Source: Termitomyces sp. T153
Lineage: Eukaryota > Basidiomycota > Agaricomycetes > Agaricales > Lyophyllaceae
DNA: 64,000 nt
Assembly (NCBI GenBank): GCA_018296165.2
Contig: JACKQL020000021.1
Coordinates: 806,001-870,000, forward strand
Direction: 5' to 3'
Shown: piece by piece, positions 1 to 58,082 of the stretch
How positions within the stretch are numbered: position 1 is the first letter of the stretch
How the letters are laid out: each line of letters opens with the position of its first letter
Notes under the pieces: model-generated
Told to the model about the DNA's origin: nothing
The model's input: only the letters and a program-made list of their open reading frames with translations
The model's database searches: none
Made by a program: the position numbers and the translations under genes

Positions 1-221
1 GCTAAACTGGATAAGGAAGTAGAAGGTGGTGAAAATAGGAAGGAATTACCAAAAACAGGTTGTACTAATATAATAGGCATGATCACTGCCCTTTCTGCTC
101 CAACAGCCTGGGATAATCAGTTCTGTCAGTGAAGTGCTAAACTGGGTAAGGAAGTCGAAGGTGGTGGAAATAGGAAGGAATTACCAAACAGGTTGTACTA
201 ATATAATAGGCATGGTCACCA
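1..221. repeat. Tandem duplication of about 86 bp
   Basis: Bases 1-86 and 136-221 are near-identical direct repeats, both starting gctaaactgg and running through aataggaaggaattacc. They are separated by about 49 bp. The repeat covers the end of exon 1 and the start of the intron of the antisense accessory gene remnant, so it is a local duplication inside a decaying element. Confidence 0.8.
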
Positions 222-475
222 CCCAAACCTGGGAAAGCCTTTGCAGTATTGCAGATCTCAATGACAGCCAAAGCAAACAATGGCAAGTTGCAGGACTGCT
301 GTAATTGTTTGGTTAGAGTCATGCTTCACTGCACACTTAAGGTTGGCAAAATGGTTGGGAGTGGCAAGGGTAGCCAGTGCAGAGGGTTGTGAAGCTTTGC
401 AGGGTGTAGTTGGGATAACAGCATGGACCGAAGGAGCTGTGGGGGTGAATGCCCAGACTAAAAGGGTGATTGATT
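1..475 (-). pseudogene. Antisense accessory gene of Gypsy element 0, exon 1 remnant
   Basis: Degenerate copy of the accessory gene that lies antisense to gag-pol in this Gypsy group; the rest is beyond the window start. The minus strand shows a TTPCK motif (about 395-405), a PNHFANLKCAVKHDSN stretch and, after a frameshift, AVIEICNTAKAF. These match the exon-1 segments TTPCK, PNFYGMLQHAVKYDAH and AVIGLCNTAAAF of the copy at 43073-44388. It lies left of the polypurine tract and 3' LTR of a plus-strand element, so it is antisense to that element like the other copies. No function is known. The homology is read by eye and is convincing at the motif level. Confidence 0.6.
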
Positions 476-12756: not shown

Positions 12757-13834
12757 TGTCAGGTTCCACTGACCACAGGAGCTCAGCTTAGCTGGGCAAA
12801 TCCTTACTATGCAGACACAATGTCCTGTGCTTATGACCTAGCGCTCTGGGGATGGTTTGGACCTCAGATACTTGCAAGGAGAAGCTATGGGGAGTGGTCC
12901 AAGCAAGTTCAGGGTGGTCTGGGGAAGTCTAAGACCAAGTATATTAAACATTGGGCTTGGGCAGATGTCAGGTACAAATCCATAAGCAAGTGTATGGGCT
13001 GCAGAGTAAGCAGAGGCTTTATGAGTGATGGGAGCAGAGCCAGAGTGTGATGGGGGATCAATTAAGTGTGATGAGTTCCAGGGCTGAGTGTAGAGCGAGG
13101 TCTGGAGTTATCATATGAATGTTTGAAGGGTCATAGTGTGTGCACAGAGTTCATAATGATGTCAGAGTTGAAAGGAACTTAGGAATGATAAAGGAAACAG
13201 AGCCAGATGAGATGAGACAAAGTCAAGACAAGATGGAACTGAGAAAGAGATAGATTTGAGACTAAAGATAGAAACAGAGATGAGCCCAGGAGATGAAACA
13301 GAAGGAAACACAAGACACAGGTAACCAAGTAAAGCAATATCAAGACTGAGGTAACAGATGCTACTTTATGGTTTATATACTAAGTACTAGACCTCCTCTA
13401 GGGGTCAAAGGTGTGGCAGTGGGGCTCATCAGAGCTGTGTGGGGTTGACAGGTGTTGGGTCTGATTGGATGGTAGGCTGAGGCAATATTCTGATGGGAAC
13501 TGATGGGGACATGGTCCTCCTTGTGGTCATTGGAGAGCTCCAGAGGAGTTGTGTGGGTTGTAGGGGTCAGCCAATGATGTATGCCTGGGTCAGGGGACAT
13601 GTCAGAGAGCCTCAGGGCCTCATGGGGGAGGAGGGGTATCTGAGGAGGCCCACAAGGGATGCATTGGAGTCTGTCAGGAGGTTGTCAGGGTTTGCCAAGG
13701 AAGTGTTGGAGTTAGCTGGGACAAGTGCCATGGGTCAGCAAAGGCTGGAGTGAGTCAGGGGGTTGTTAGAAGAAGCTCCAGAGGAGCAGGGTGACCTGGG
13801 GGGAGGTCTGGGGGTCTGGGAGTGGGTCATGACA
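12757..13834 (-). mobile_element. Solo LTR, Gypsy family D, inverted
   Basis: Reverse complement of the family-D LTR: starts TGTCAGGTTCC and ends GGGTCATGACA. The flanking 5-mers acagc and atggc match at only 3 of 5 bases, so a target-site duplication is possible but eroded. It lies between the remnant at 12445-12751 and the 3' LTR remnant of element 3. Confidence 0.8.
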
Positions 13835-14148: not shown

Positions 14149-15345
14149 ATGTTGTAAAAGGCCATTCCTACCACTCCCCAAAAATGCCTAATCCTAAAAT
14201 CCTTCACCTGCAGGTTGTGATCACAACCTTGCCTCATCCTGCTCCCTCACATTGTCATACCCTTTGCCACCTGACTTTTATGGAATGCTTCAACACACTG
14301 TCAAATGGGATGCTAATCAAGTCATCCTCACTGTCCTTCAGTGCCTGTTGTTTGCACAGGCCATAATTGGCTTGTGTAATATGGTGGCAGCCTTTTCCAG
14401 CACTCCTGCCAATCATGCTAGGTACCTGGGCTCTATTGGTTGGGTACACTTTTCCCTTTTCTTTCTTGCTTTCTTCTTCTCAGAAAAATCCCTCAGAACT
14501 TTGCTGATCAGGCCAATTTTCCCCTCCTGGCTGATCAGCAGGGCCTCTACAATGCCCTTACTGCTGTTTTGGTTGTTCTCAATTGCCAGGCAGCTGTCAT
14601 TTCTGCAGCTGTCAAGTTGTTTTTCTTGTTTGCTGATGCCATCATTCAAACTGAGGACAACTGCTGCAAAGTCCAGTGCCAACATGAGGCAGAAGCAGTG
14701 AGCTTGCCCCCATCTCTTCCTTCCTCTTAACCTTCTCTTACTTCCTTTTTCTCCTAGAAAGAACACCATGATCATGAAGGTTGTGATATCAAGATGTTGC
14801 ATCCATCTCCCACCCACTCTTCAAAACAAAAAGCTAATGTGAGCCTTCCCAGCCTCCAATCTTAACCTCCTCACTCATTGATTTGACACTGTCTCAGCTT
14901 TGATCTTAGCCAATTACAAGTCTGGCAGCAAGACAGCCCTCTACTTCTGGGCTAGATTGATGCCATCCTTGAGGCAAACCCTGTTGTCAATGGCCACAGT
15001 TTGGCCCCCTGTGAAAACCTCAAGAAGCAGTACAAGGCAGTGGAGCTTGCTGCAGAACAGCAGCTCCACCTCCTGGATGTGTCCCTTCAAATGTACAAGT
15101 TGATTATGGCTTGTCTCTCTCATCTGGACAAGGCCTTAGCCCCTGCCAACATCAATCTTGCCCATCCCCTCAACACACTCAATGTTTCATTCAAGGTATA
15201 ATTTCTTTTCATTCTGTCCTTCTTTCCCTCAGTTATTGGCCCAGTCCTCTAGTCAGTTCCCAAAGACTCTGACATCAAACTTGCCAACCCCCCTGCATCT
15301 GAACCCAAAGGTTCCTTGGAGCTTCCACTGACCCCTATATTGTAA
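14149..15345 (+). pseudogene. Antisense accessory gene of Gypsy element 3
   Basis: Homologue of the multi-exon gene at 43073-44388, antisense to the element's pol. Exons read: 14149-14443, 14497-14697 (201 nt), 14758-14838 (81 nt), 14910-15195, 15253-15345 (93 nt). The 55-nt exon 4 is missing by deletion. Lesions are a stop three codons after the start (14155-14157) and a 1-nt deletion near 14270. Introns keep gtgagc or gtac starts and cag or tag ends. Recognisable segments include YGMLQHTVKWDANQVIL, GLCNMVAAFSSTP and AEQQLHLLDVSLQMYKLI. It is tail-to-tail with pol. No known domain. Confidence 0.75.
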
Positions 15346-28928: not shown

Positions 28929-30000
28929 TGATGTGCTCCTATGCTACCTAGTGCTATGTAGGAAACCTAAAAAGAGGACCTAACACTAGTCACTAGATAG
29001 GGTAGCTGGCAGTAGGAAGTTAATAGTGAAGGCAAGTTAGTAACCGTCCCAGAAAATGAGAGCTAAAGGTTGTGGTATGAACGAGAAGTAGAAAGAATTG
29101 CTATTGCTAGCTTAAGTTGCTAGATGGTAATGAGAGGTTGCTAAGCAAAAGAAGAGAAAAAGAATGAAGGCTAAAGAACTGCTAAGGAAAGGCAAAATAA
29201 TTGGTTAAAGGAGAGTTGGGAAACAAAGGGGATAGTGATAGTAAAGAGACTGGAGGAGAACAAATGCAATCTAATTGCTAGCCATAGTTGCTAGCATTGC
29301 TAAGTCAAAGTAACAATAAGGGCACCTGCAGTTGGTACCACACAAAATCAAAGTCAAAGTTGGCAAGACTGTCACTAAGTCATTGTTGGTGATGAATGAA
29401 AGAGCAAAATGAAATCTTAAGCTGGTAAGCTTATAAAGAGGGGGAAATGGTACTCTGTTTGTTGTTTTGTCTCTATGCACAGACAGTATTTATACTGTTT
29501 GTAAGTATAGTATATGAAAGGGAATAATAGTCACTGCCAGCGACAGTGTCTGCCAAAGTGTTTATGATACATATGAGGTGTCAGTCTGGTAACCAAGTAA
29601 AAAGTAAGCAAAGTCAATGTGATGCATAAGGTAATCAATTGCAAGAAAAGATCATGTCTGATATCAATACCTGAAGTGTAGATGCTGTTCAAGTATGTTT
29701 GTAAGCTCAACAAGAAAAATGATAAATAAGAAATCACATGACTATACATCCATTTTTGTAGAGGAAGCAGTGTTGTTGCCAGGAAAGTAGCTAGCAATTG
29801 TCACTAAGAAAGGTCTTGGCCTTGTTGTTCTAGACCCAGAGTCCAAACTCCACATAATACAGCTTGTTCCAGACCTCAGGGCTAGGCCTCACATGCTGAG
29901 TATCATAACTTGCATTGTGACTTGTGCCATGTCAATATAATTAGCTGCTGTCCAATCAGAAATATGGAAAATGGTGCTAAGCAACAAGTAGGTCTTATCA
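28929..30000 (-). repeat. 5' LTR of the minus-strand family-F element
   Basis: TGATGTGCTCC ... GGTCTTATCA on the plus strand, the reverse complement of 22488-23622. The adjacent minus-strand sequence tttTGGAGCACACCATGAGGG (28908-28928) matches the putative primer site of elements 1 and 2 (TGGAGCCCACTGTGAGGGG). No duplication is found because the left LTR is missing. Confidence 0.8.
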
Positions 30001-30071
30001 GTTGAACTTCTCTTTTGGACATTTGGCTTCTCACTCCACAAACAAGTACTTGCTTGTTTGACTTAGAAAAA

Positions 30072-32123: not shown

Positions 32124-34464
32124 ATCACAATCCCCCCCAACCCTCTGGAGTTCATCCTCACACAATGCCAGCAGTCAGGTCAACACCTCCACCCATCACT
32201 GCAAGAATGTCTTAGAGAAGGACCTGGAGGTCCCCCCAGGCCCTCCCACCAAAGCTCCCATCCCAGAGGAGTACACATGTGGCCCTGGAGGGCCTGCTAT
32301 CAACCCTCTGCCCCATAGCCACTTGCTGGGCCCCACCCTTGATGAGAAGAAAGCCCTCTGCTTGCCTTTATCACATGCTGCCAAGGCCCCCACCCTCTGC
32401 CCATCCTGTGGGGGTCCCACCTTCATTGTGGACTGCCCCCCACTTCCTCCACTCTCCACTCTGGACCCCCAGCCTGACACCCTACCCCTGTGCCCCTCAC
32501 CCATCTGCTCTGCCACCCATGCCAGATCCAACCCTTGCTCCTCCAACATGCAGGCCACATGCTGATAAGACCCATTTGTTGCTGAGCACCATTTCCAGCA
32601 TTCCTGATTGAACAGCAGCTGATTATATTGACATGGCACAAGTCATAATGCAAGTCACAGTATGTAGCATGTGAAGCCTAGCTCCAAGGTCTGGAACAAG
32701 CCATATCACATGGAGTCTGGATTTTGGGTCTAGAGCAACAAGGCTGAGACCGTTCTTAGCAACTTTTCTGGCAACAACACAGCCTTTCCTCTAAAAATGG
32801 ACACATTGACAGTCATGTGATTTCTTATCATTTTTATTGTTGAGCTTACAAACATACTTGAACAACATCTACACTTCAGGTATTGACATTAGACATGATC
32901 TTTTCTTGTGATTTATTACTTTTACACATCAAATCAACTTCACTTACTTTTACTTAGTTACCAGACTGACACCTCATATGTATCATAAATACTTTGGCAG
33001 ACACTGTCACTAGCAGCAACTATTATTCCCTTTGTATACTATACTTACAAACAGTATAAATACTGCTTGTACATAAAGACTAAAAACAACAAACAGAGTA
33101 CTGTTTCCTCCTCTGTAAGCTTACCAGCTTAAGATTTCATTTGCTCTTTTGCTCACCATTGACAACAACTTAGCAACAGTCTTGCCACCCTTGACTTTGA
33201 CTTTGTGTAGTACCAACTGCAGGTGCCCTTATCATTATTTTGACTTAGCAATGCTAGCAATTATGGCTAGCAACTATTTTTGAGTTTGTCCTCCCTAGTC
33301 TCTTTATCATCACTTTCCCCATCATTTCCCCAACTCCCCTTTTTCTGCTTAGTTCTCCCTTTTTCAATGACTCTTTTGCCTTTGTTCTTTTTCCCTACTT
33401 TTGCCTAGTGACCTTTTGTTATTATCTAGCAACTTAGGCTGGCAATAGTGACTCTTTTCCACTTCTTGTTCACACCACAACCTTTGGCTCTTGTTCTCTG
33501 GAATAGTTACTGACTTGCCCTCTTTAGTAACTTCCTACTGCCAGCTACCCTGTCTAGTGACTAGTATTAGGTCCTCCTTTTTGGTTTCATGCACAGCACT
33601 AGGTGGCATAGGAGCACATCAACGCCAACTCAACAAGATTGGACACTTCTCATGCCTCATCCGACATGAAAGACACACTGAGGTGTCCTGATGAGAACCC
33701 TGTGTCAGTGCCTCAAATTTGCACTGCTCCCCATAACAAGCACAGAGGGCACACTACAAAATCAAGTCAGCCAAAACCTGGTACAATGACACTGGCCACT
33801 CACCAGAGCCTCCACTTGGCACCATTCAAGGGTCAGAGGACCATGCACTTGCCCCACTGCCTCTGCAAACTTCTCCAGGGTCACCTCCTACCTGTGCAAC
33901 CCACAGTGCCTCTGGAACAACCTGCACTTTCCCCAGATCAAAATTGGGCCTTGAGGAATGCACTGCCAGCACTGGGGCCAACCATGCTGGAGCCCTGCCC
34001 CAAGAAGAAACCTCCAAAGGACCTGCCACTGCTGTGGACAGCTCTGCAAAAGCTGAGGTCAGTAATGCATTACCTGCTAAGACCATCACAAGAAAACCTA
34101 CAACTGCAATACATGGATTCTATCCTGTCACAGTCCTGATGTTGATCTAACTCTTTATAGCACCCCTCCCACACCTCAATGCTGTTGTTGTCTGATGGCA
34201 GGGGAGTTGGAGATGCTGAGAATGCTGAAGACAAAGCTGAGGAAGACATGGAAAAGAGTTTTGGAAACTCTGAGGTACACCTGATGCCTTTTAATTGATT
34301 GGGAAGAACTCCCTAACAAACAGTAGCCATGCTTTGACTTCATTCCCCATGCTGCTGCCACTTGCTGTGGTTTGATCAATATTACTTGGCTTCAATTCCC
34401 ATGCCCTGCCAATTCCCAAACCATGCTCCATGTCTCAAGGGTCTTAATGCTAAAGGTGGGGTGA
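32124..34464 (+). pseudogene. 3' part of a plus-strand family-D element, unidentified coding
   Basis: Proline-rich coding-like sequence (KAPTLCPSCGGPTFIVDCP, about 32375-32430) is interrupted by a solo LTR (32563-33621) and resumes to about 34138, with possible further exons to 34275. It ends in the purine tract taaaggtggggtga directly before the LTR at 34465. No RT or integrase is visible and I do not recognise the protein. The element's 5' part was lost at the junction with element 3. Confidence 0.4.
32563..33621 (+). mobile_element. Solo LTR, family F
   Basis: TGATAAGACCC ... GGAGCACATCA, third copy of the family-F LTR. The flanks atgc (32559-32562) and acgc (33622-33625) are a 4-bp duplication with one transition. 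Confidence 0.8.
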
Positions 34465-35611
34465 TGTCATGACCCACTCCCTGAACCCCCAAACCTTGTT
34501 CCCAACCACCTCACTTCCCTGGAGTTCCCTCCAATGCCCCCTCAAACTCCCCCAACCTTTGTGCACCCATGGCGCCCACTCCAAGTAACTCCAATGCTTC
34601 TTCAGCAAACTCCAACAGCTCTCTGACTAATTCTAACATATTTCCCACAGCCTTTAACACTTCCCATGCCTCTCCTGAGACTCTGGGACTCTTCCCCACT
34701 GTTTCTGATGCTAGTGTATGTTACTGGCTTGCTATCCAGACTTACCTGACCAGCTCCAGAGCATCACAACAGCTCTGGGGCAGCTCACGTCCCATCTGAT
34801 TGCATCAGTATATCACCATGGCCCACCCTCTAATCACAACTGACACCTGTTGACTCCATGCGGCCCCAACAAGCCCCACTACCAGACTTGCTGCCCCTGG
34901 AGCTGCTCAGTAGTTTGTATATAAGTTGTAGAGTAGCATCCCATACTCTAGTCTTGATATTGCTTAACATTACCTATGTTCTGATTGTTTGTCTTTCTGT
35001 GTTTCATGTTATGTTTTCTCTTCTCTCAGTCTCCCAGTCTTATCTCAGTCTCCTGGTCTTGTCTTGTCTCTATCTCCATTATTGTCTCATTATCATTTTC
35101 TATCTCTGCTTCAATTTATTTTTGGTCCTCTCTCAATCTTGCCTTGACTCTGTCTCATCTCATTTAACTCTATTTCCTTTATTGTGCCCAAGTTCTTTCA
35201 ACTCTAATGCCATTACAAACTCTGCACTTATGATTACAATCCCAAACATTCTTAACCAACTCCAGACCTTGCTATTTACTTGGCCAAAACCCATCAACAT
35301 CAATTGATCCCCCATCAAACTGTGGCCCCACTCCCATCACTTGTGTAGCCTCTGTTTGCCCCACACTTCTAATACTCACTTCTGGACTTGTTGTGCCTGA
35401 TGCCCCTTCAAGTCCAACCCTTCCCTGCATCTTTTCTTAGACTTCCCCAGACCACCCCAGACTTGCTTGGACCACTCCCCTTTGCTTACTCTTGCAAGTA
35501 TCTGAAGTCTGGACCTCTCCAAAGTGCTAGGTTATCAGTGCAGAATGTTGCATCTGCCTAGTAAGAACTCACCCAGTTAAGTTGAGCCTCCATGGTCAGT
35601 GTAACCTGACA
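34465..35611 (+). repeat. 3' LTR, Gypsy family D
   Basis: TGTCATGACCC ... AACCTGACA, 1147 bp, directly after the purine tract at 34452-34464. No matching duplication follows; the next base begins chromovirus gag in the other orientation, so the right flank was rearranged. Most CpG present in the copy at 1700-2818 is lost here. Confidence 0.85.
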
Positions 35612-37772: not shown

Positions 37773-38365
37773 TGTAGTACTGGGTTAGAGTAATACTGAT
37801 AGTTCTGGGGCTTTCTTGAAGACTTAGGAAGTCCACTCCAATTCCACACTGATGTCTTGATAATTGTTTGAGGTTGAGGTTTACTTCCAAAATATTTCTA
37901 TTCTGAATGTAGAGGTGTTTCAACAAACTCCAGCCTAAGTGATTCACTCCCTGGGAACCACCAAGCCTTTGCCTATTAATTGCCTGTCCATTTGCTACTC
38001 TACTTGGACTATTTATACCTCTTTCTACAGTGCACAGACCACCCCCTACATGTGACTTTTGGTTCCATACTTTCCAGCCCCTTATTCATAACTGTTATTC
38101 TAATTCCTCCTTTTGGCATGCCTGTTTCAGTGCCACAGGCCAGTTCCTGGTTCCATCATTCCTCCTTTGCATTCTTAGCTTCCATTTGCCCCATTTATCT
38201 CTCCCTCCTTTGTATTTCTTCCATTCATATTCTTCTCCATTCAGTTTCTTCCCTTCTTCTTCCTTTATTTATTTCATATTCTTCCCCATTCAGGTTCTTT
38301 CCCATTCAGGTTCTTCCATTCATCTTCCTTTATTCATTTCATATTCTTCCCTTTTCAGGTTACAC
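37773..38365 (-). repeat. 3' LTR of element 1, truncated
   Basis: Matches 56086-56700 closely, then diverges. Its right end and exon 1 of the neighbouring accessory gene appear deleted. It includes a pyrimidine-rich minisatellite built on cattcaggttcttcc. Confidence 0.75.
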
Positions 38366-38378
38366 CTCTTCTATCCAG

Positions 38379-39373
38379 GTTTTTACAGACCAATCTGATT
38401 TCGAGCACATTTCTCAACAATTGGGCATCTACAAAGCCTTATACAGCATTCAGGAACTCATCAATTGCAGCCTTGCACAGTCTTCTGCCACTATCAAGAA
38501 TTGGTGCATTTTTGCTGACATCATTCTTAAAATAATCAAGGACCATTGTGTCAAAGAAGCTGCCGACTGAGCCACCAAAGAGGCTAAAGAACGTGCCAAG
38601 GTCCATCCTTCTATTCTCATTGCAACTCTATTCTGATGCCTCCTAGACCTGCCATTGTGATGACACTTGCAAAGCTCATGAACGCTGTCAGGAGCATGAT
38701 AGTGACATGGAGATGATGAGTGTGTCCTCTCCATGCCCTTCCAAGTGCAAGCCTAACGACGTGAGCCTCTCCTTTATTTTTAGAAATGCAAATTAATGAG
38801 TTATTTACTTGTTTCTTGCTCTTTTCCCTTTCCAATCAGCCTATGCCTGAGGTGGCACCAGAAGCCAAGAAACTCCATCTCCATCCTTCCATTGGTGCAT
38901 TCCTTTTACTTCTTTTATTTGAATCTTTCTTAATCCTTCTTCTTCAGCCTCATACCATCCCAACGGTTCATGTGCACAGGCTTTGTTGGACGAAACCAAT
39001 CACATCTTAGCCAAGGACAGCAAGGTTTCTTGCTCCATGCTATGTGACTATGCTCAGGCACTTGATCAAACTGCCTGCCAACAGCTTTTTGCCTTGGACA
39101 TTGCTCAGCAACTCTGCAAACAACTTATTGCCCATTGCAAGGCTGTTAGGACCGCACTCAATAATCATGACATTGCAGACACTGGCATCTTGATTTGTGA
39201 TCTGCAAGTCACCTCCAGTTTGCAATTGGTCTGTCTATTTCACTTATTCAGAACCTTCCTGTCACTTATCAATCTTTTCCCAGCCAGCTATCACCAAAAA
39301 TTCTTCTATTGAGGTCTCTGGAATGGATCCCAAAGTGGACAAAATAGCAAATGCTATTGAAGCAACATTGTAG
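38379..39373 (+). pseudogene. Antisense accessory gene of Gypsy element 1, exons 2-6
   Basis: Plus-strand exons: 38379-38600, 38647-38760, 38840-38894 (55 nt), 38948-39228, 39284-39373, all with GT-AG introns and consistent phase, ending in TAG. It is homologous to 43073-44388 although most residues differ: DQSDFEHISQQLGIYKAL aligns with NQADFPLLANQKGLYDTL. Only one in-frame stop is seen (38568-38570). Exon 3 is cysteine-rich (CHCDDTCKAHERC). Exon 1 is missing with the LTR end. The last exon ends about 430 bp from the pol stop, tail-to-tail. Predicted mostly helical, no known domain, no signal peptide visible. Confidence 0.75.
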
Positions 39374-42010: not shown

Positions 42011-42862
42011 TGATGTGAAAGTAAGTTTGATGTCATTAATGATGTGATCAACTTATCAAACTTTCTATTCACAGTTTGTTTTGGAGGCTTTTAGTTACAC
42101 TCGAACTTACTTAGAACTTCAATAGAAGAGAAGCAAGTTAAATATTTTAATGATTTGATTCTAAGCTTGAGATGGTCTTGTGCTAAAGAAAGGGCTCAAC
42201 AGTATATTTACTACTCCCAAAGCAACTAATGCACTCTTAAGCCTAAGAATTCTGCTCCCTGAGGAACTCCAAGCCATGGTACATAGTCTGCTTGCCTTTC
42301 TCCCTATTCTTCCATCCTTTTTATACCCTGTTGTCTGTGCATGGACCAGTGCATTCCACGTGGTATTGTGCTGCGATAATTGGTCTGCATGTCATTTCTC
42401 CTGTGTCATTCCGTCCATCTGAGATTTCCATGGTTTTTACTCTTTCCTTCCCTACTCCTTTGTTTTTCTAACCATTTTATGGTCATTCTTTGGGACTCAA
42501 TAGTGTAGCTTAGAAATTTAAAATACACATGTCATGGTAGGTGTTTTGATCATTGGGATTGTTTTGCAGTTTATTGCAGAGGTTCATCAGCCTTGATGGC
42601 TGATCTTGGATTATGATCTGAGCATCTTGGCCTGAGCATTGCCACAGACTTGGCACTTTGTCAGTCTGATGTATTTGCATTGGTCTAGTCATCTTTTTCG
42701 TGTTACGAGGGTGGTAGTACTTATTGGTTTTTAAAGGTATGTTTTTGTGTCTACAGTTTTCAACATTTGGCTTACAGTTTTCAGCTGTCTGATGTAGAAA
42801 ACATTCTTTTAGTTTGTTCTGTGCACTTTTTGTCAGACCTCAGTTTTGAGGCCGGCGTATCA
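42011..42862 (-). repeat. 3' LTR of element 2
   Basis: 852 bp, TGATGTGAAAG ... GGCGTATCA, adjacent to the purine tract complement cctcccccacact. Differences from the other LTR are few and mostly transitions, for example ccaaagcaac against cctgaagcaac. Confidence 0.95.
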
Positions 42863-43072
42863 CCTCCCCCACACTTTCAGATGACTGCCCTCAGTCATTT
42901 TGTCATCCTTGGTAAGCCTACGTCTGTCCCTGCCCTTTTTTGATCCGAAAGATTTATTTTCCCTTTCTTTCAAAGTCAGAAAATAAATTTCCATCTCATT
43001 TTTCCTGTTTGATCACTCCCGCTGAAAGTTGTTTTATAAAGACCTCGCTGTGCCATTTGTTCTCTTTGACCA

Positions 43073-44388
43073 ATGTCCCCAAAAACTGTCCCAACCACCC
43101 CTTGCAAAATGCCTTCTTCCAAGGTTGTCTGTCCCCAAGTGGTGATTACCACATCACCTCGCCCAACCCCTGCTCCTCGTCATATGCCCTCACCTCCCAA
43201 TTTCTATGGGATGCTCCAGCATGCTGTCAAGTATGATGCCCATCAAGTCATCCTTGCCATCCTCCAGCGCCCTCTGTATGCACAGGCTGTAATTGGCTTG
43301 TGTAACACAGCAGCAGCCTTTTCTAGCACTCCCACTAATCACGCTAGGTACCTGGGCTCTATTGGCTGGGTACGCCTCTCATTTTCTTCCTCTTTCCTGC
43401 CCTCTTTTTCTTAATTCCCTTTTTAGACCTTTGCCAATCAGGCCGACTTCCCCCTCCTTGCCAACCAAAAGGGTCTTTATGACACTCTTTCTGCTACTCT
43501 GGACATCCTCAATTGCAAGGCTGCCGCAGACTCTGCCGCCGTCAATTCATTTTGTCTTTGCCGATGCCATTATCAAGACCAAAAACAAACATTGTAAACT
43601 CCAGTGTCAATGCGAGGCAGCTGCGGTGAGCCTGTCCATACTTCTCTCCATCAATATTTTCTCTTAAATTGTTCCTTTATCCAGAAACAACACCGTGAGC
43701 GCAAGGACCGTGACATCAAAATGTTGGGTCTGTCCTCCACTCATTCCTCAAAACAAAAAGTCAATGTGAGCCTTTAGCTTCCTGTCTTGACCTCCTCACT
43801 CATCGCTTTGATACCCTCAACTTGTTCCTCTCTTCTCCCCAGTCTGAACTTGATGGCAAGTCAAAACCGAAAAAAGTCAAAATTACTCCCTCTGTTGGTT
43901 TGTCTACCCCATCCCTTCTTTCTTTTCTGACTCCTATCTTACTTATTGCCCTAGCCAACTATAAGGCTGGCGGTGAGACCGCTCTCCTCCTTTTGGGCCA
44001 GATCAACGCCCTTCTTGAGGCTCACCCTGTCATTGATGGCCATAGTTTGGCTCCCCTCAAGGACCTCAAGAAGCAACATGACACGGTGGAGCTAGTGGCG
44101 GAACAGCAGCTCCACCTTCTGGACACAACCCTTCAAACATACAAGCTCATTGTGGCTTGTCTTTCCCATCTGGACAAAGCCTTATCCCCTGTCGACATTG
44201 ATCTTGCCAGTTTGCTCCTTACTGCACTCAATGTTTTATTCGAGGTATATTCTTTTTCTCTTCCCCCATCTTATGCCATTAACCTCATCTCTTAGTCAGC
44301 CTCCAAAGACTCTGATGTTGAACCTGCCAACCCTTCAGCAGCCGAGCCCCAAAATCCCCTGGAGCTTCCATCGACCCCTGCATTGTAA
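43073..44388 (+). CDS. Antisense accessory gene of Gypsy element 2, six exons, best copy
   Basis: Located between pol and the 3' LTR but on the opposite strand. Exons: 43073-43369 (99 codons), 43427-43625, 43685-43765 (81 nt), 43843-43897 (55 nt), 43955-44244, 44296-44388 (ends TAA). Introns of 51-77 nt have gtgag, gtac or gtat starts and cag or tag ends; intron 4 is 57 nt and frame-neutral. Exon 2 is 2 nt short against the 201-nt exon of element 3 (near 43545), a probable frameshift. Predicted product about 338 residues: Pro-rich N-terminus, helical middle (AVIGLCNTAAAFSSTP), charged KQHRERKDRD linker, then a long helical region with AEQQLHLLDTTLQTYKLIV. No family recognised. Its promoter would lie in or near the 3' LTR. 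Confidence 0.75.
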
Positions 44389-44596
44389 ACATATGCTTTG
44401 CTTCTGCCTTACATAGTGTCATTGTAATTTGAACACCCCCACTCGTACCAAAATTCCCTCTATATTCCTTATTTCGTAACCCTAAATCTAATGTCATTAA
44501 CCCTGAAGACATGTGACCTAAGTCCTTTTAACTTATTTTTGATTTTTAAGCAAAAACTTTGAACTTTTTCATCAACTTTTGGGGCTATTGTCCAAC

Positions 44597-47500
44597 TTAA
44601 ATTGTGTCATGGTCTAGAGGCTCATGAAGCCTTATAGATCCAAATGATAGACCAAACATAGCATTTATGGTAGGCCTTTGTAGTTCTTCCCTTAGCTCTT
44701 TCAACTTTTCTGGAGTGATGTCTACCCATTGCTCTAGGCTTTGGGATAACTCCAATCGTTTTTGAGCTTTGTAAGGAACTACTCTAAAAGCCGCAACTCT
44801 GGTCTGCCAAACTGGCCCATCTAGCTCTGCCACAATGTAATTACCACCCCTGGTCCTAGCAATTACTACCATTGGACCATGAAAACGAGGCAGCATTTTA
44901 GCACTGTGTGAACTTTCTGTAATCATATTCTTGACCAAGACTAAGTCCAAGGGCTTGAATTTGAAGTCTTTGATAGAGCTTTTGTGCTCTTCTACAAACT
45001 TCAAGGCCCATTGGAGTTTGTCCTTCCCAACTCTCTACCTCATCTCTTCTACATGCTGGTGGTGCTTGGCTAAAGCCCTAGCACAATACCCAATTAACTC
45101 CTCTGTAGATAATGGCCCTGCTAGTAATTCTATTAGCCAGGTAGCCTCTAGTAAGTCCAAAGGTAGAGTTGGATGAGCTCCAGTGACCATGAAGTATGGT
45201 GAACACCCAAATCTCTGCCGGATAGTAATGCAATCACTCCACATTACATGGAAGAAGAACCAAAACCATTTAGTGCAATCTTCACAAGCTTTAAATAAGG
45301 CTTGCCTGACATCCCAATGTGGTCTTTCAATTTTGCCATTAGCTTGAGAGTTGTATGGAGAGATGGCAATGCCTCTGATTCCATATTTACTCTCTATCCA
45401 AGCTGTGACCTTTTTGAATTGTCCAGCATTGTCAGTGATGATTTCTGCAATGCAACCCCAGCAACAAATCACATCCTCAAACAACCATTGACCAATTGTT
45501 TTATGGTTTTCTTTGCACAGAGGCCTCCCTTCCATCCATGAAGATAATGCACACCTACCATGGACAATATACTTGCAGCCATTTGAAGCTGGAGTCATGT
45601 CCATGGTATCAATATGAATTGTTTGGAAGATAGAGGGTGTATAGGTTACTGTAGGAGCTCTGTTTACAACTGTCTTCTGATGTATCTGACAGTTGTGGCA
45701 AGTTTCAACATACCATTGTACATCCCCATCAATTCCTGGCCACCAAAATTGTTCTTGTATTAACATTTTGGTTGCATAAGTCCCTCTATGCCCTAAGGCA
45801 TCATGAGCTGATTTAAGCATGAACATTCGCCTATCAATATTGACTACTAGCTTATGCCTAGCCTCATGATTGCGCTTGTACAGTCTTCCCTTTTGATCAA
45901 AGAAGAACTGTCTTGCAAACCTCTTGAACTTGTCTGGGTCCCATCCCTTCAAATCTTCAGGTTCTTTGCTTGGGTCTTGTAGCCAGCTTTGTACAATTGG
46001 TAGCAAGTCATCCCACTGTTCACTCTCACCACCCTTCCTATGTTCTAAGTAGGCTTGTAAGTCTGTTTCCTTTTCTTCCTCAGTACCTTCTGTGGGTAGC
46101 AGAGGCTGAGAGAGAGATAGTACTGCAACAGGATCTATTCTAGATGTCTGCTGCTGACTTAGAATGGCCTTCCTAAGTTCCACCTCTTGAGTCCTTGCTC
46201 TATCAAGTTCTTGTTCAAAGTCTGCTACTTCAGTGGCTACTGCATGTAGATAGCCACCTCTCGTGTCAATTTGATCTACAAACTCTTCAAGTGCTAAGGG
46301 TTCCCAATCCTCCCAGCCTGGTTCATTGTTGGTTTTAGCTGGATATTCAAAGTGCATAGTCTTTGGATTGTCCACTAATTCTGGATTAACAGGTGGGTAC
46401 TCCTCATCTCCTGGCTGCTTGATCCTCCTAGACAGGCCATCAACACTAAAGGTCTTCCCTGGCACATGCCTCAAAGTAAAATGATAGAGTAGTACATCCT
46501 CAATCCATCTTATAATGGTGGCATTGGGTCCTACTCCAGGATTGCTTAGCATCCCTTTCAAATACTTGGCATCTGTCTCCACTACAAGTTTTCTACGACC
46601 AACTAGCCAATACTTATTAGCTTGCAGGGCTCTCATTAAACCATAGAGTTCTCTTTTAGGTTGTGAGAACCTTGCCTCCCTCTCATTTAAAGTGATGGAT
46701 CCTAGCTTAGCACAAGTGTGTTGCTTAGGATTGTCTGGAGCTTCCTGGAATATTCCAAAGCCCACTGCCATCCAAGAAGTGTCAACTGATAGGACCACTG
46801 CCCCTCCTGACTCATAGTCAAGTGGTTTCAGAGGTGCACTTGCAGCTAGTAACTTCTTCAATTGAGCCATTGCTGACTGCTGTTCCTCACCCCAAACAAA
46901 TGGTGTGTGGTTTTGAGTCAATTTGTTGATGGGTGCAGCCACTTTGGCATAGTCTTTAATGAACATCCTAAAGGTACCACAAGTACCTAGGAAAGCTCTG
47001 ACATCTGACTTGTCCTGGCAATCACCCCACCCCATAACAATGGCCAACTGCTTGGTCTCAGGTTTCTGTCCCTCATAGGAACACCTGTGTCCAACCACTA
47101 CAATCTCATCTGCACAGACTACTGACTTTTTCCCAGAGAAAGTTCCTCCAGCATATTTGATTCTTTGTAACACTCTGTTTACATTCTGCAGATGTTCCCA
47201 TACAAATCTCCTAATGCCTGGGTTTTCTGGAATAACTTCATAGCCTCCATCTGGCATTTCATACCTGTGAGGTGGACCTCTAATTGGCACATCATCAATG
47301 TATGGCCAAGTTACATGAGGTATCTCATCCTTCAAGATGAAGGTAATGTCATCATGAAAGATTGGTACTGAATTTGTCCAGCCCATTGGCAGGGTTACCA
47401 ACCTTAGAGCACCAAAGGGTGTCTGAAAGGTGGTATAGTCCCTAGACCTTACATCCAACACTCTCTCATCATATCCCACATACAAATCAAAGATTCCTCC

Positions 47501-48440
47501 ACAAGCTCTGCCAGCAAAATGACTAGCTAACTCTTCTGTTGCTGGTGGCAACCTAGAATGGGCTATGGTCACTGTGTTTAAAGGTTCCAAGCTGTTAACT
47601 ATCCTCAAGCTCTCACCATCCTTCTTCAATACTGTGAACCACTGGGATCTGTATGAAGAGTTGGATGGCTCATACACTCCTGCCTCAATTTTCTGCTTTA
47701 TCATCTGGCAGATTTTATCTCTGAGTCCTGGAGCAATGGGAATGTTCTTCAATACCCAGGGGGTGTGAGGAATTACTGGCATCACCACAGGAGGGAAGAA
47801 TTCCTCCTTGAGCCTACCTCTTTGAGAATCATCCCATGCAAAAGCCTCATTCTGCAGCATCATTAGATGATGTACTGCCTTCATCTCTTCTGGCCACAAG
47901 AAACCATCACCATGTGCTTGGTCAATGATCTCCTTGCCCTTAGCAGTGTACCTCCCTGTGGGTTTGAAATTAGGTGGGTTTGGGTCTAACTGTGGCATGT
48001 CTGCTAGTGGATCCCCAGTGATACACCTTTCAATTCTAAACTCCTCAGGAGAGGTTCCTAGTACAGGTTTCACCTTTCTAGCAACAGGTTTGTATTTCTT
48101 AGAAAATACTTGTGCAGTTTCCCCCACACCTGCTTCGAACTCTAGGCTTCCCTGCTGTACTAAGATTTCTTCCAACTTCTCTGGTATCTGACACAGCTGC
48201 CCATTTAGATAGGCTGCTAATGTCTTCTCATCTCTTCCTCCCACATCTCCCTCTACAGCAAAGGCCTGCAGGTACACATTTCTCAACTCCTGGTTCTTGA
48301 ATCTACTATGATTCATAGTGTATCCAGTCACCATTACTCACCATTCTCCTTCTCCCCAATCATCACTGCCACCTCTCCCTGGTCACTGACCAGATCATTG
48401 AGATTTAAAATTTTGGATCACTATCTCCTCCAACACCTGC
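44597..48440 (-). pseudogene. Element 2 pol: RT-RNase H-integrase, near-intact
   Basis: Open for 1099 codons (48334-45035), then one TAG at 45032-45034, then open to 44597. RT: WFTVLKKDGESLRIVNSLE, LPMGWTNSVPIFHDD and catalytic YIDD at 47291-47302. RNase H: LSVDTSWMAVGFG, ETDAKYLKGM. Integrase: HDALGHRGTY ... CHNCQIHQ, then IDTMDMTPAS, TDNAGQF, NGKIERPHWD and GPMVVIARTRGGNYI. The start region has a 1-nt deletion near 48340 relative to element 3. Pol lies one frame back from protease (-1). Slightly damaged but all catalytic residues I can name are present. Confidence 0.9.
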
Positions 48441-49430
48441 CTTTGGCACCTTCCCTCTTTGAAGAGTGGGCAGGGCTGTCCAGCAACCAGTATTAGGATC
48501 TCTGATAGTTATGATGGCACTGCCATCTTGAAGGTTTTGTATGTTGCTCTCTGTCAGTGTGTCAAATGGATGACCCAACAAGACAGTATAAGCTGGCTTG
48601 ACAAAGATATGCACTTGTAGATAAATGGTGAAGCCTTCAGCAAAAGTAAATGGCACATTTTTGGCTAAACCAACTGATGTATTCACTTGACTGTTGGCAC
48701 TCTCCATCCTTGAGCATATATCTGGATCCCAAGTCAATCCTAAACGAAGTGCCTCATCTAGTGCCATACAGACTATCTGAGAACCACTATCTAGAATTGT
48801 CTCTACTTGTCCCCTCTGATTGACAATGGGGTTCAAGGATCTCAACACTTGCAAATCTCTTGCCATATACACCACTACTGGCTTTTCTCCTGGAGGGATA
48901 TTTTCCAAGTAAGTGGCTACACAATCCTGATGCACTACTGCACCAGTAGGCAAATCACCCTGTGTTCCATCTGCAATGAAATAGGTTGCCATTGGTAGGT
49001 CATTGACATCTACTTTGTCACGTGGTTTCTTCTCCCTTACAGTCTGCTGTTGAACTGCTGCCTTTGGGATATTGGGGTCCCTAGACTGAATCCCTGATTT
49101 GAGATACAATTTTTATATCATTGCTTCTCTTAATCCAGGAGCTACATCTAACAGTTCTCCAGTACTGAAAGGTACAGTAGCCTCCCAGAGCCTATCAATG
49201 GTCCTATCCCACTCCCTCCTCCTTGTTCCTGTTAAGGAACTTTTAACAGTGTCCTGCACTGGCAAGTCTGGTCCCTCATTAAGGGCTGGAACCTTCTCAA
49301 AAGGTAGGTCCAGTTTTGGTGCTGCTCTAGGTGGAATCACCAGAGTTAGCTTTTCTTTCCAGGGTTTTTCAGGGGTTCTCTATGGCAATGAGGATACTCC
49401 TGGTTGAGATGCCTCTTTCCTGATTGCCTT
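48405..49430 (-). pseudogene. Element 2 protease frame
   Basis: Retropepsin with ETILDSGSQIVCMALDEA (catalytic D-S-G) and YTVLLGHPFDTLTESNI, ending at TAA 48405-48407. One in-frame TAA at 49113-49115 separates the upstream linker (49340-49116). The frame is -1 to gag and +1 to pol. The protein cleaves gag and pol. Confidence 0.8.
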
Positions 49431-49441
49431 CATTGAGTTAT

Positions 49442-50913
49442 TTAAAAATCCTTAGAGGAAGATTTCTGTCCTTCAGGACTAGCTGTGTTCCTTGTGTTGA
49501 CCAACACACTGAGCATCTCAGCCATTTTATTGAAACCTTTCTCCAAGTCTCCCAAGCGGTCTGACTCCTTATATTGAATGCACTCTAACATGTCATCCCT
49601 TGTGTCCCTAGCAGAGTTTACATAGGTAGAGTAAGTGACTGTCTCTGGAGAGTCATCTTCTGGCCATCCAAAGTACATATTCACCTGCTTATCATGTACT
49701 TGTGCTAGTCTAGCATGAGGAGATATACCAGCAGGATCCCTAGGTAAAGGAGCACTATTAGGTAGTCTGGCTCTCCCTTCCAATAGGAGATCCATCCTTT
49801 TTGTACATCTCCCTTGATGACTTCACACTCTGAGATTCTATGTCCAGTTTGCCAACAATAGAAGCAAGTAACACCACTTCTCCCAGAAGTTGGAAATGTA
49901 GGAGGCCCTTCTGTCCTTATACCCTGGCTTCCTTTGGTATTGAAGAAGGTATTGCACATGTCCAACTGACCAGCTTGCAAAGCTTGCATGGTGCTCTGGA
50001 TGCTCCCCATTTGTTTCCCAATGGTAACCACAGCATCTTGGAGATGAGCCATTTTCTCCTCCACTTCCTCCTCCTTAATGTTCCCCCTACTAGTTTCTCT
50101 CTTTTCTATTTTCTCCTCTCTAGGGCTCCTTACAGTAGCACCATCTATCAAGGTCCCCACTACTGTCAGCACTTCTGATAGGTCATACTTGTTGTCCTTG
50201 TGCCTATTTCTAGCAGGGTCTTTGTAGTGGCCATATCTACTGATCAACCTCTCCTCAATCACATCTCCAAAAGCTGGTGTAAAGCACCCCAGGAATTTGT
50301 CTACCAGAGACCCATTCCCAGTGACATTAGCCAACTTCTTAGCCTCAGCTCTAAATTTCCTTATCAGAGAATGGATTTCTGTAGTGTCATTCCTACTAAG
50401 TCTGGCATGTTCTCTGCAGATTCTGTCCAGGTTTGCAACACTACCTGTGTCATCCACTGCTTCTGGATAAGACTCCTTGATCTCTTTCTCAAAAGCAGAC
50501 TAAGTATAGTCATCTCCAAAGGAATCAAAGCCCAGCCATTCCTGTTCAGTCTGAGCATCCACATACTCCAAGATTCTCTTTTTCCTTTCTTTATCTCCTT
50601 GGATCCCAGCATGCTCAAACAGAGAGATCATCCTTTGTAAAAAGCGACAAACCTCAGAGGGCTCAGTGTGCTTAAACTTAGGTGCATCCCTGCTGTCAGG
50701 CAGTGGTAGTTTGTATCTGATATTTTGCTCCATAATTGAGGCAGTAGAAACTGGTTGAGTAGTAGGGTACAGTTCTTTTGGTGAGCTTGAAATTACTTTC
50801 TCAGTCCGAAGCTTTCTCTTTCTGAGTAAGGTTTCAGGGTCAGGCAAAAAGGACTTTGAACCACTGCTATTGGTCCTAGTTTCTCTTTTCCTTAATGTAA
50901 CAGAGTTTTTCAC
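49442..50913 (-). pseudogene. Element 2 gag
   Basis: A conserved ATG at 50731-50733 (MEQNIRYKLPLPDSRDAP) aligns with the element 1 ATG. The open frame also extends upstream to 50913 with the conserved DPETLLRKRKLR. Capsid-like region, then zinc knuckle CFYCWQTGHRISEC (C-x2-C-x4-H-x4-C) near 49850. Lesions: a TAG where element 1 has Trp (about 50500) and a frameshift near 49790. It ends KDF-stop at a ggatttttaa site. Confidence 0.85.
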
Positions 50914-51051
50914 CTTGGTTGCAATAACTTCAGGTGTTTGGGGCCAAGACCCAGGTGGTGCAAAACTAATGTTTCACCAGGGTTGGACTTCCTCAAGAAA
51001 ATCCCAAAGTAAGTTTTTGTGCAACAAAAGCCCCTCGCAGTGGGCTCCAGA

Positions 51052-51903
51052 TGATGTGAAAGTAAGTTTGATGTCGTTAATGATGTGATCAACTTATCAA
51101 ACTTTCTATTCACAGTTTGTTTTGGAGGCTTTTAGTTACACTCGAACTTACTTAGAACTTCAATAGAAGAGAAGCAAGTTAAATATTTTAATGATTTGAT
51201 TCTAAGCTTGAGATGGTCTTGTGCTAAAGAAAGGGCTCAACAGTATATTTACTACTCCTGAAGCAACTAATGCACTCTTAAGCCTAAGAATTCCGCTCCC
51301 TGGGGAACTCCAAGCCATGGTACATAGTCTGCTTGCCTTTCTCCCTATTCTCCTGTCCTTTTTATACCCTGTTGTCCATGCACGGACCAGTGTGTTCTGC
51401 GTGGTATTGTGCTGCAATAATTGGTCTGCGTGTCATTTCTCCTGCATCATTCTGTCCATCCAAGATTTCCATGGTTTTTACTCTTTCCTTCCCTACTCCT
51501 TTGTTTTTCTAACCATTTTATGGTCATTCTTTGGGACTCGATAGTGTAGCTTAGAAATTTAAAATACACATGTCATGGTAGGTGTTTTAATCATTGGGAT
51601 TGTTTCACAGTTTATTGCAGAGGTTCATCAACCTTGATGGCTGATCTTGGATTATGATCTGAGCATCTCGGCCTGAGCACTGCCACAGACTTGGCGCTTT
51701 GTCAGTCTGATGTATTTGCATTGGTCTAGTCATCTTTTTTGTGTTACGAGGGTGGTAGTACTTATTGGTTTTTAAAGGTATGTTTTTGCATCTACAGTTT
51801 TCGATGTTCGGCTTACAGTTTTCAGCTGTCTGATGTAGAAAACATTCTTTTAGTTCATTCTAAGCACTTTTTGTCGGACCTCAGTTTTGAGGCTGGCATA
51901 TCA
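51052..51903 (-). repeat. 5' LTR of element 2
   Basis: 852 bp, same ends as 42011-42862. It is bordered on the left by the primer-like site and on the right by duplication atag and element 1 RT. Confidence 0.95.
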
Positions 51904-56085: not shown

Positions 56086-57126
56086 TGTAGTACTGGGTTA
56101 GAGTAATACTGATAGTTCTGGGGCTTTCTTGAAGACTTAGGCAGTCTACTCCAATTCCACACTGATGTCTTGATAAATGCTTGAAGTTGAAGGGGTTTAC
56201 TTCCAAAATATTTCTATTCTGAATGCAGAGGGGTCTCAACAAACTCCAGCCTAAGTGATTCACTCCCTGGGAACCACTGAGCCTTTGCCTATTAATTGCC
56301 TCCTATTTGCTACTCTACTTGGGCTATTTATACCTCTTTCTACAGTGCATAGACCACCCCCTACATGTGACTTTTGGTTCCATACTTTCCAGCCCCTTAT
56401 TCATAACTGTTATGCTAATTCCTCCTTTTGGCATGCCTGTTTCAGTGCCACAGGCCAGTTCTGGTTCCATCATTCCTCCTTTGCATTCTTAGCTTCCATT
56501 TGCCCCATTTATCTCTCCCTCCTTTGTATTTCTTCCATTCATATTCTTCTCCATTCAGTTTCTTCCCTTCTTCTTCCTTTATTTATTTCATATTCTTCCC
56601 CATTCAGGTTCTTTCTCATTCAGGTTCTTCCATTCATCTGTCCCCTCCCATTCATTCCATTCATCTTCCTTTATTCATTTCATATCCTTCCCCTTTCAGG
56701 TTCTTTCCCATTCAGGTTCTTCCATTCATCTTCATTTCCCTTCCCTTCATTCCATTCATTTCATATTCTTCCATTCATCTTCCTTTCCCTTCTCTTCATT
56801 CCATTCTTTCTCATTAATTCCCCCTTTACCTCCTTTCAGTCAACATTCCAATCTGGTTATTCTTAGATCAGATCTAGATCTTGCCAGAATTGATGCCACT
56901 CAGGTGCTTTTGCCAGTCCCATGCTTCCACTCCCATTACAGTGATTGGACTATCATTGAGTGTATAGTCTAGTATAGTCCTTGTCCTATCTTGTTCTGTC
57001 TTTTTTCTGGTGTATTTAAAGGGATAATGTTGCTGGGACTTGTTTTACCAGGAGGCTTACAGTTTTCAGCCTTAATAAATGTTTGTTTTGACTTCTGGTG
57101 TTTATTATGTTCCCAATAGTGTGACA
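56086..57126 (-). repeat. 5' LTR of element 1
   Basis: TGTAGTACTGGG at 56086 to about 57126-57129 (...GTGTGACAACA), about 1.04 kb. It is next to primer-like tcTGGAGCCCACTGTGAGGGGC (56066-56085). It contains ggcttacagttttcagc shared with element 2 LTRs and an expanded cattcaggttctt minisatellite (about 56540-56810). The right boundary is uncertain by a few bases. Confidence 0.8.
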
Positions 57127-57145: not shown

Positions 57146-58082
57146 CCTGGATAACTCCAATGCTTCTCCAGCAAACCCCAATGGCCCCCTGGCTAACTCC
57201 AACACCTTCTCTGCAGCTGTTGTTGCTTCCCTTAACTCTCCTGAGCTCCTGGAACTCTCTCCCACCATTCCTGACCCCATCATGCATCTCTGGCTCACCA
57301 CCCTGACTCACCTGACCTCCTCTGGAGCATCACAACAACTCTGGAGCAACTCGCATCCCCAACTGATCCCATCAGAATATTGCCGTGGCCTGCTCCTTGA
57401 TTGCAACTGACACCCATCAACTCTGCATGGCTCTGTCAAGCCCTGCCACTACACCCACTGCCCCTCAGAGCTCTCCAGTAGTCAGTATATAATCTGTAGA
57501 GTAGCACCTTGTACTCTGGTCTTGATATTACATTAACTGATTACTTGTGTCTTGTGTCTCTTGTGTTTCTATTTTTATTTTAGTCTCAAATCTATCTCTT
57601 CTCTCAGTCTCAACTCATCTTGCCTCCATCTCATCTCAATTGTCTCTATCTCCTTTGTTTCTCTAAGCTCTTTTCATCTCCAATATCAGTACAAACTCTA
57701 TGCACACACTACAATTTCCAAACATTCTTATGACAACTCTGGACTTCATCCATTGCTTGGCCCTGGAACCCATTAAGTCTTGATTGATCCCCCATCAAAC
57801 TCCAGCTCTGCTCCCATCATCTGCAAAGCCTCTGCTTGCCCCACAGTCTATTTGCATGCCCGCAGACTTGTTCCTGATGCCTGCCCAAACTTAAATATAC
57901 TTGGTCTTAGACTTCCCCAGACCACTCTGGAATTACTTGGACCGCTTCCCTTGGCTTCCCTTCACAAGTCCCTCTGGTCCGTGCCAACCCTGAAGTGCTA
58001 GGTTATCAGCACAGAGCATCACATCTGCCTAGTAAGGACTTGCCCAGTGTAGCTGAGCCCCCGTAGTCAGTGGAACCTGACA
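57146..58082 (+). repeat. 5' LTR of a family-D-like Gypsy, left end missing
   Basis: Matches 34585-35611 from taactccaatgctt onward and ends AACCTGACA. The first roughly 110 bp of the LTR are absent where element 1 abuts. Internal sequence of a plus-strand Gypsy follows from 58083. Confidence 0.8.

Follow-up and report, generated by a model that had tools for sequence, protein, structure and literature searches.

How can a retrotransposon, which passes through RNA, carry a gene with introns? The question is raised by a Ty3/Gypsy element in the genome of Termitomyces, a mushroom that termites farm. The DNA studied here (the window) is a stretch of 64,000 nt, positions 806001-870000 of contig C21 in the Termitomyces assembly G000 (72.4 Mb, 307 contigs), and positions below are given in window numbering. 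An earlier note had proposed that a spliced multi-exon gene under selection lies in it between pol and the 3′ LTR, on the strand opposite to gag-pol. Additional antisense genes in this place are an established kind in plant Gypsy elements, called aORF-3R, with gene23 of Grande, RIRE2, the TRP28 ORFs of Retand and PvRetro13 as examples; a nuclear product and an own promoter have been reported for gene23, and the role of the Gypsy antisense accessory genes is still regarded as unsettled (PMC7264820). Several questions follow. Is the gene real, and is its product selected? Are its introns removed in one way only? What would it do for the element, or against it?

A spliced gene opposite to gag-pol

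The host of the gene, element 2, is a Ty3/Gypsy LTR retrotransposon with the order RT - RNase H - integrase, a Ty3-like RT, two LTRs, a purine tract and a candidate primer site (Table 1). The LTR pair (42011-42862 and 51052-51903) is 852 nt long with an identity of 94.8%, the termini are TG...CA with a 4-bp direct repeat (ATAG), the purine tract GTGGGGGAGG adjoins the 3′ LTR, and the candidate primer site starts with TGG 2 nt past the 5′ LTR. Its pol matches Ty3 Gag-Pol (E 2.7e-25), the PFV integrase (1.6e-10) and the Pfam domains RNase H and H2C2; no match to the Pfam RT and integrase-core models was found in it. The whole element is nested in pol of another element, with LTR matches at 37773-38328 and 56086-56643.

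Table 1. Features of the gene, its host element and the further gene copies in the window.
Feature	Position	Strand	Basis or remark
Ty3/Gypsy-type LTR retrotransposon (element 2), gene host	42011..51903	-	LTR pair and termini
3′ LTR of element 2	42011..42862	-	LTR pair comparison
TATA-like TTATAAAG, candidate own promoter	43034..43041	+	sequence match; 39 nt ahead of start codon
Six-exon gene of element 2	43073-44388	+	antisense to gag-pol; pol on one side, 3′ LTR on the other
Exon 1, 297 nt	43073..43369	+	alignment of copies and spliced aligner
Exon 2, 199 nt in window copy	43427..43625	+	alignment of copies and spliced aligner
Exon 3, form A, 81 nt	43685..43765	+	alignment of copies and spliced aligner
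Candidate donor B, GT	43728-43729	+	conserved in copies
Segment A, form-A-only part of exon 3, from candidate donor B	43728..43765	+	basic; ends KRKAN in many copies
Acceptor B, AG	43776-43777	+	conserved in copies
Segment B, coding-like 65 nt within intron 3	43778..43842	+	follows acceptor B
Exon 4, 55 nt	43843..43897	+	alignment of copies and spliced aligner
Exon 5, 290 nt	43955..44244	+	alignment of copies and spliced aligner
Exon 6, 93 nt including stop	44296..44388	+	alignment of copies
pol ORF (RT, RNase H, integrase) of element 2	45038..48337	-	protein and Pfam matches
Degraded gene copy in related element	14158..15342	+	three frameshifts, one stop; exon 2 201 nt
Diverged, partly matched gene copy in element 3 (second family)	38382..39217	+	exon 3 114 nt, exon 4 55 nt
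Gene remnant in element 0	71..443	-	sequence match

Various other repeats were seen in the window. The LTR ends of element 3 (38231-38361 and 56545-56814) hold short tandem repeats, with units of ~65 nt rich in TTCC/TTCATT, whose number is unequal between its two LTRs. A ~500-nt repeat occurs three times in both orientations (12757-13278, 35133-35611 and 57568-58082; identity 72-75%), and ~1-kb repeats with 79-82% identity lie at 22660-23622, 28929-30001 and 32562-33621, two of them as inverted arms ~2.6 kb apart. In the assembly at large, contigs C28, C44, C65, C166, C282 and C210 start 130-360 nt ahead of a pol match, and assembly breaks seem to fall inside these Gypsy elements.

When the protein of another copy was used as query, a spliced protein-to-DNA aligner recovered exons of 297, 199, 81, 55, 290 and 93 nt (the last given as 90 plus stop) between the pol end and the 3′ LTR; the five introns, at the boundaries that had been predicted from the letters, are all GT-AG. 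The aligner placed a single frame break in the window copy, in exon 2. Searching the genome DNA with the gene gave 43 matches, and the 16 copies keeping both gene ends, the window copy included, were aligned. Exon 2 is 201 nt long in 14 of the 15 others and 199 nt in the broken L022 and in the window copy, which is therefore frame-broken, as expected from the 2-nt loss already suspected in it. Conservation of the exon structure across diverged copies had also been claimed, and it is borne out by the splice dinucleotides (GT or AG), which are intact at 153 of 160 places in the 16 copies. The full series of exon lengths, 297/201/81/55/290/93, is complete in nine of the 16; one exon differs in six, and five differ in L022. 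Introns drift in length and sequence where exon lengths hold: between L009 and the copies L026 and L028, exons are 69% identical and introns 54-56% (54% for L028). Seven of the 16 are open over their whole coding length (337-338 aa). An open frame alone is no proof of function, because the open copy L014 has an intron 1 of only 25 nt and a GC donor at intron 5.

The further window copies that had been announced were all found (Table 1), although the element numbers of the earlier note seem not to run from left to right. The longer exons ascribed to the copy at 38382-39217 hold for exon 3, and exon 4 is as given in Table 1. An exon 2 of 222 nt would fit a donor lying 51 nt further downstream than the site that the aligner used in relatives of this element (171 nt). 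L039, L041 and L045, relatives of this copy, align without stop or frameshift. They belong with a second family (family 3), whose integrase region is ~64% identical and whose gene pieces are about a third identical, in the same layout, with an exon 3 of 114 nt and an exon 4 of 55 nt. The same layout is kept by a subtype with exons of 285/225/78/55/290 nt, represented by L033 (one stop) and L037, with L034 similar and bearing one frameshift. L052 (C73:25700-26900), a diverged relative, contains 443 open codons in a row, and no pol match of C73 is among the matches listed; it may belong to another element or have been domesticated.

Judged from these alignments, the existence of the spliced antisense gene itself is all but certain. 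The earlier argument on intron survival agrees with the orientation: introns antisense to the genomic RNA would be recognised for splicing in the antisense transcript alone, and the genomic RNA would carry them through reverse transcription. An own promoter is plausible, since TTATAAAG or a close match stands at -38 to -40 in 14 of the 16 aligned copies; the match was not found in the other two, L014 and L025. In L046 and L047 a CTATAAGG stretch is present in the same upstream region.

Selection on the product and the two candidate splice forms

Does the protein matter to the element, or only the transcript? Among the 21 pairs of the seven open copies, dN/dS is 0.09-0.19 in 17 between-subfamily pairs, 0.285 for L026/L028 and 0.72-0.97 in the three pairs of the near-identical L016-L018. 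The two other forward frames, in contrast to these low in-frame ratios, gave 0.98-2.07 in three test pairs. In the same pairs two of the reverse frames gave 0.87-2.34 and the mirror frame 0.17-0.29, a low ratio that is expected because this frame shares the codon third positions. Constraint is uneven: in five test pairs the ratio is 0.38-0.80 over the first 45 codons and 0.26-0.51 over the last 30, and in the middle of the gene it is 0.04-0.15 in those of the five where it was computable. For gene cores compared inside the subgroup to which the window copy belongs, the ratio is 0.27-0.57. The ratios indicate that coding selection acts on the product of the antisense gene, as had been suggested when a dN/dS check was proposed.

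It has been considered possible for antisense transcripts of other elements to supply double-stranded RNA for silencing or to cause promoter interference (PMC7264820), and the RNA rather than the protein might likewise matter here. An RNA-only role, however, predicts neither in-frame codon constraint, nor conserved splice sites, nor introns that drift faster than exons between subfamilies, and we consider it very unlikely.

The exon differences among L016, L017 and L018 are all transitions (74 of 74, summed over the three pairs), 58 of the 74 being of CpG type, and their introns show 4 differences per 876 compared sites. CpG is largely gone from the window copy, too (observed/expected 0.40 in exons). 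The transition-only changes in L016-L018 are decay after insertion, with which earlier selection is still compatible, and their pattern looks like methylation-linked decay.

Could the gene be no more than a captured host gene, hitch-hiking and decaying? Its introns are host-gene-like, several copies are decaying, the annotated relatives lack genomic context, and L052 stands as described above. Against this, the position of the gene is constant across two families and several subtypes, and between-subfamily dN/dS is far below 1, even though the three near-identical copies do show what post-insertion decay would give. The probability of such an origin as the whole explanation appears slight.

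The earlier interpretation of a spliced, selected antisense gene in diverged Gypsy families stands in its outline, but intron 3 is not a plain intron, its last 65 nt being coding-like. This segment B is left in intron 3 by the form-A gene model and read by several annotated relatives. It is 65 nt long in 19 of 24 copies, 59 nt in three copies of one subtype, and 64 and 61 nt in L009 and L022, which are both broken. Its pN/pS in six representative copies is 0.30 in one frame versus 1.17 and 2.11 in the others; over the 19 copies, codon position 3 is variable at 19 of 21 sites and positions 1 and 2 at 20 of 42 (Fisher p 0.0009, a guide value since the copies are related). Intron 3 has an identity of 0.64-0.75 versus 0.53-0.67 for the other introns in seven aligned pairs, a gap that is small in some, and 42 to 45 of 45 columns are variable in the other introns, which are unaligned, so that their variation is overstated. 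By its substitution pattern, segment B evolves as coding sequence. Exon 3 is constrained at its end as well, with an in-frame pN/pS of 0.28 over the final 39 nt.

Around these segments, both donors, A (after exon 3) and B, and acceptor B are conserved. Donor B is GT in 24 of 24 copies examined, lying in a codon that is mostly GGT, TGT in L025 and AGT in family 3; the GT is absent in the degraded window copy (14758-14842). From donor A to acceptor B the spacing is 10, 12, 13 or 14 nt. Because this is too short for an intron, segments A and B would be mutually exclusive unless the whole is retained. The family 3 counterpart of segment B is open and 56 nt long, the same length modulo three, and the stretch there reads, by eye, EMQINELFTRFSLFSLSHQ beside ASRLDLLAHRFDTLNLFLSSPQ.

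Alternative splicing may nevertheless be absent, with B (or A) always exonic or both retained, and the form A of the aligner wrong. Copies with an intron 3 of 69 or 78 nt read straight through in frame (by eye), and when 96 annotated Termitomyces proteins, which are gene models, were sorted by pattern, 12 held both segments, 19 A only, 24 B only and 41 neither; both observations count against an exclusive choice between A and B. In the 77- and 79-nt groups, however, read-through is out of frame, with a stop in the window copy and L028 (by eye), and yet A and B each hold their own frame even there. The spacing below intron size and the joint conservation of the three sites also speak against constant inclusion, which we think unlikely; a two-way splice at intron 3 is, from the same alignments, the likely state.

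How would the two forms differ? In form A, KRKAN together with KPKPKKVK gives a split basic, bipartite NLS-like motif (by eye). All 21 open-frame copies of the 24 have in form B a leucine-rich match to phi-x3-phi-x2-phi-x-phi, a kind of pattern that is common in helices and was matched by eye. The NLS-like and export-like labels follow general patterns judged by eye.

Probable exchange of gene cores and loss of the gene

Gene and pol of one element can differ in history, as their divergence and their trees show. The window element and L028 are 92-98% identical in pol, from 44811 on, whereas their gene cores are 59-66% identical; a pol dS of 0.065 stands against a gene-core dS of 2.07 between L014 and L028. 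The gene/pol ratio of dS ranges from 0.8 to 31.8 over 36 pairs, and was not computable in three, where the gene is saturated. Divergence jumps at two places: around codon 45, in exon 1, and in the stretch from the gene end to pol. Gene and pol trees of 13 copies reject each other, with L028 and L014 grouped in both. The simplest reading is that gene cores have been exchanged between elements as a cassette.

How regularly do the elements carry the gene? In the first 45 pol matches (identity of at least 84%; 104 of 1302 candidates scored; lists matched by eye), a gene match is near at least 31, six are without gene, six run off the contig and two are ambiguous. The gene thus lies opposite to gag-pol, in the space separating pol from the 3′ LTR, in most copies, which is the placement rule of the plant aORF-3R (PMC7264820). 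Gene-less copies have arisen by internal deletions that are independent across two families. In family 3, a common deletion in L040, L043 and L044 has brought the first ~50 nt of the gene next to the end of pol; this junction occurs at nine loci (eight without mismatch), nearly as often as the gene-bearing counterpart stretch with 10 (seven without mismatch), counts in which duplicated contig ends may figure twice. In family 2, another deletion is shared by L046, L047 and a third locus, L049 has a further deletion of the gene core, and in L048 and L050 gene pieces were looked for and none were found. Pol is open in several gene-less copies. Since gene-less derivatives have multiplied (nine and three loci), the gene is not needed in cis. 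It is a usual component that has been lost more than once; with multiplied gene-less elements, several of them with open pol, it may even be dispensable altogether.

Alternatively, the protein might be a self-encoded brake, for copy-number control or exclusion of related elements, with the deletions as escapees and cassette exchange changing who is restrained. The spread of gene-less derivatives suits this, as do differing gene cores on near-identical pol backbones and the conflict of gene and pol trees. There is a precedent in Ty1, which, according to PMC7055915, is controlled by an element-encoded trans-acting protein (p22/p18) whose gag source has spread by transfer and recombination; p22, however, is a piece of Gag from a sense transcript, unlike the unrelated antisense gene in Termitomyces. 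A pure brake should be lost often, and the survey above found the gene kept far more often than absent; strong purifying selection also argues against it. A brake of this kind is conceivable, with a probability that we put well below even.

Relatives, known systems and a possible role

What is the protein? A query with the product of one copy gave 72 relatives and a profile query gave 89 among the best 8000 candidates, in both cases all hypothetical proteins of Termitomyces. Sequence and fold searches gave no family or function for the antisense protein, and neither TRP28 (PF04195) nor bZIP models are among the Pfam matches of 59 members at E 0.1 (six families matched by any member). P0001, a form-B relative, was modelled with AlphaFold2 from 59 sequences (mean pLDDT 69.4). 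Prediction is good over residues ~40-190, which make up a small helical domain and a long helix (136-199), with segment B at the end of this helix; the ends of the protein are disordered.

Among known systems, the plant aORF-3R resemble the gene in position, orientation and presence (PMC7264820), but no sequence relation was seen among the protein matches, and the TRP28 domain was not matched. The main text of the Retand paper does not contain the word 'intron', whereas the Termitomyces gene has five introns and a conserved arrangement for alternative splicing. Fungi are no longer without a case: the earlier note knew of no described fungal family, but Boty of Botrytis cinerea is a Gypsy element with an antisense gene, brtn, between pol and the 3′ LTR, the same general kind (Zhao 2011, as cited in PMC7264820 and PMC8365987). 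By that description the likeness is one of position and orientation, and the host differs in being an ascomycete. No Botrytis proteins occur among the relatives listed, and brtn is reportedly absent from the most recent B05.10 annotation (PMC8365987).

The closest analogue, by comparison of descriptions, is HBZ of HTLV-1, which is also a spliced antisense gene and has two protein forms. HBZ (and APH-2/3/4) is likewise antisense, at the 3′ end of the provirus and nuclear, with spliced and unspliced forms giving two proteins; it differs in bZIP features, expression from the 3′ LTR and forms that diverge at the N-terminus (PMC10186651). The Termitomyces gene, unlike HBZ, gave no bZIP match; its candidate TATA box lies in the internal region, and its predicted forms differ in mid-protein.

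An outline of how the gene would work is as follows. It would serve Ty3/Gypsy elements as an accessory gene, with a transcription direction opposite to that of gag-pol and probably with a TATA promoter of its own in the interval from the 3′ LTR to the start codon. The product of ~338 residues is predicted to have a disordered basic N-terminus, a compact helical domain, a long helix, a basic NLS-like stretch, a second helical region and an acidic tail. Depending on the choice at intron 3, exon 3 would end with KRKAN, so that the bipartite NLS-like motif is completed with KPKPKKVK (A), or the leucine-rich stretch would lengthen the long helix and fit the spaced hydrophobic pattern (B). Acting in trans in the nucleus, the protein may then assist or adjust nuclear stages of the element, and gene-less copies would use the protein of other copies or do without. 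A trans-acting nuclear accessory protein is the best reading of the sequences and the most likely, which we rate at slightly better than even chances. More tentatively, and at somewhat less than even chances, the system may be an independently evolved, fungal HBZ/Rev-like layer of regulation: a multi-intron antisense gene in two Gypsy families, with a conserved splice switch between an import segment and a leucine-rich export or dimerisation helix, in an exchangeable hypervariable cassette that is lost from some elements, which then do without it in cis.

In the literature searched, we found no description of a selected five-intron structure, a conserved two-way splice, cassette-like exchange and multiplied gene-less derivatives in one lineage. 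In a single Termitomyces genome there are open copies of the gene, copies whose gene cores differ greatly on backbones that are almost alike, and, in two families, derivatives that have lost the gene naturally; together they offer a ready comparison for its role. If the two-way splice is true, an element that passes through RNA keeps a five-intron gene with regulated splicing, and it would owe this to the opposite orientation of the gene.
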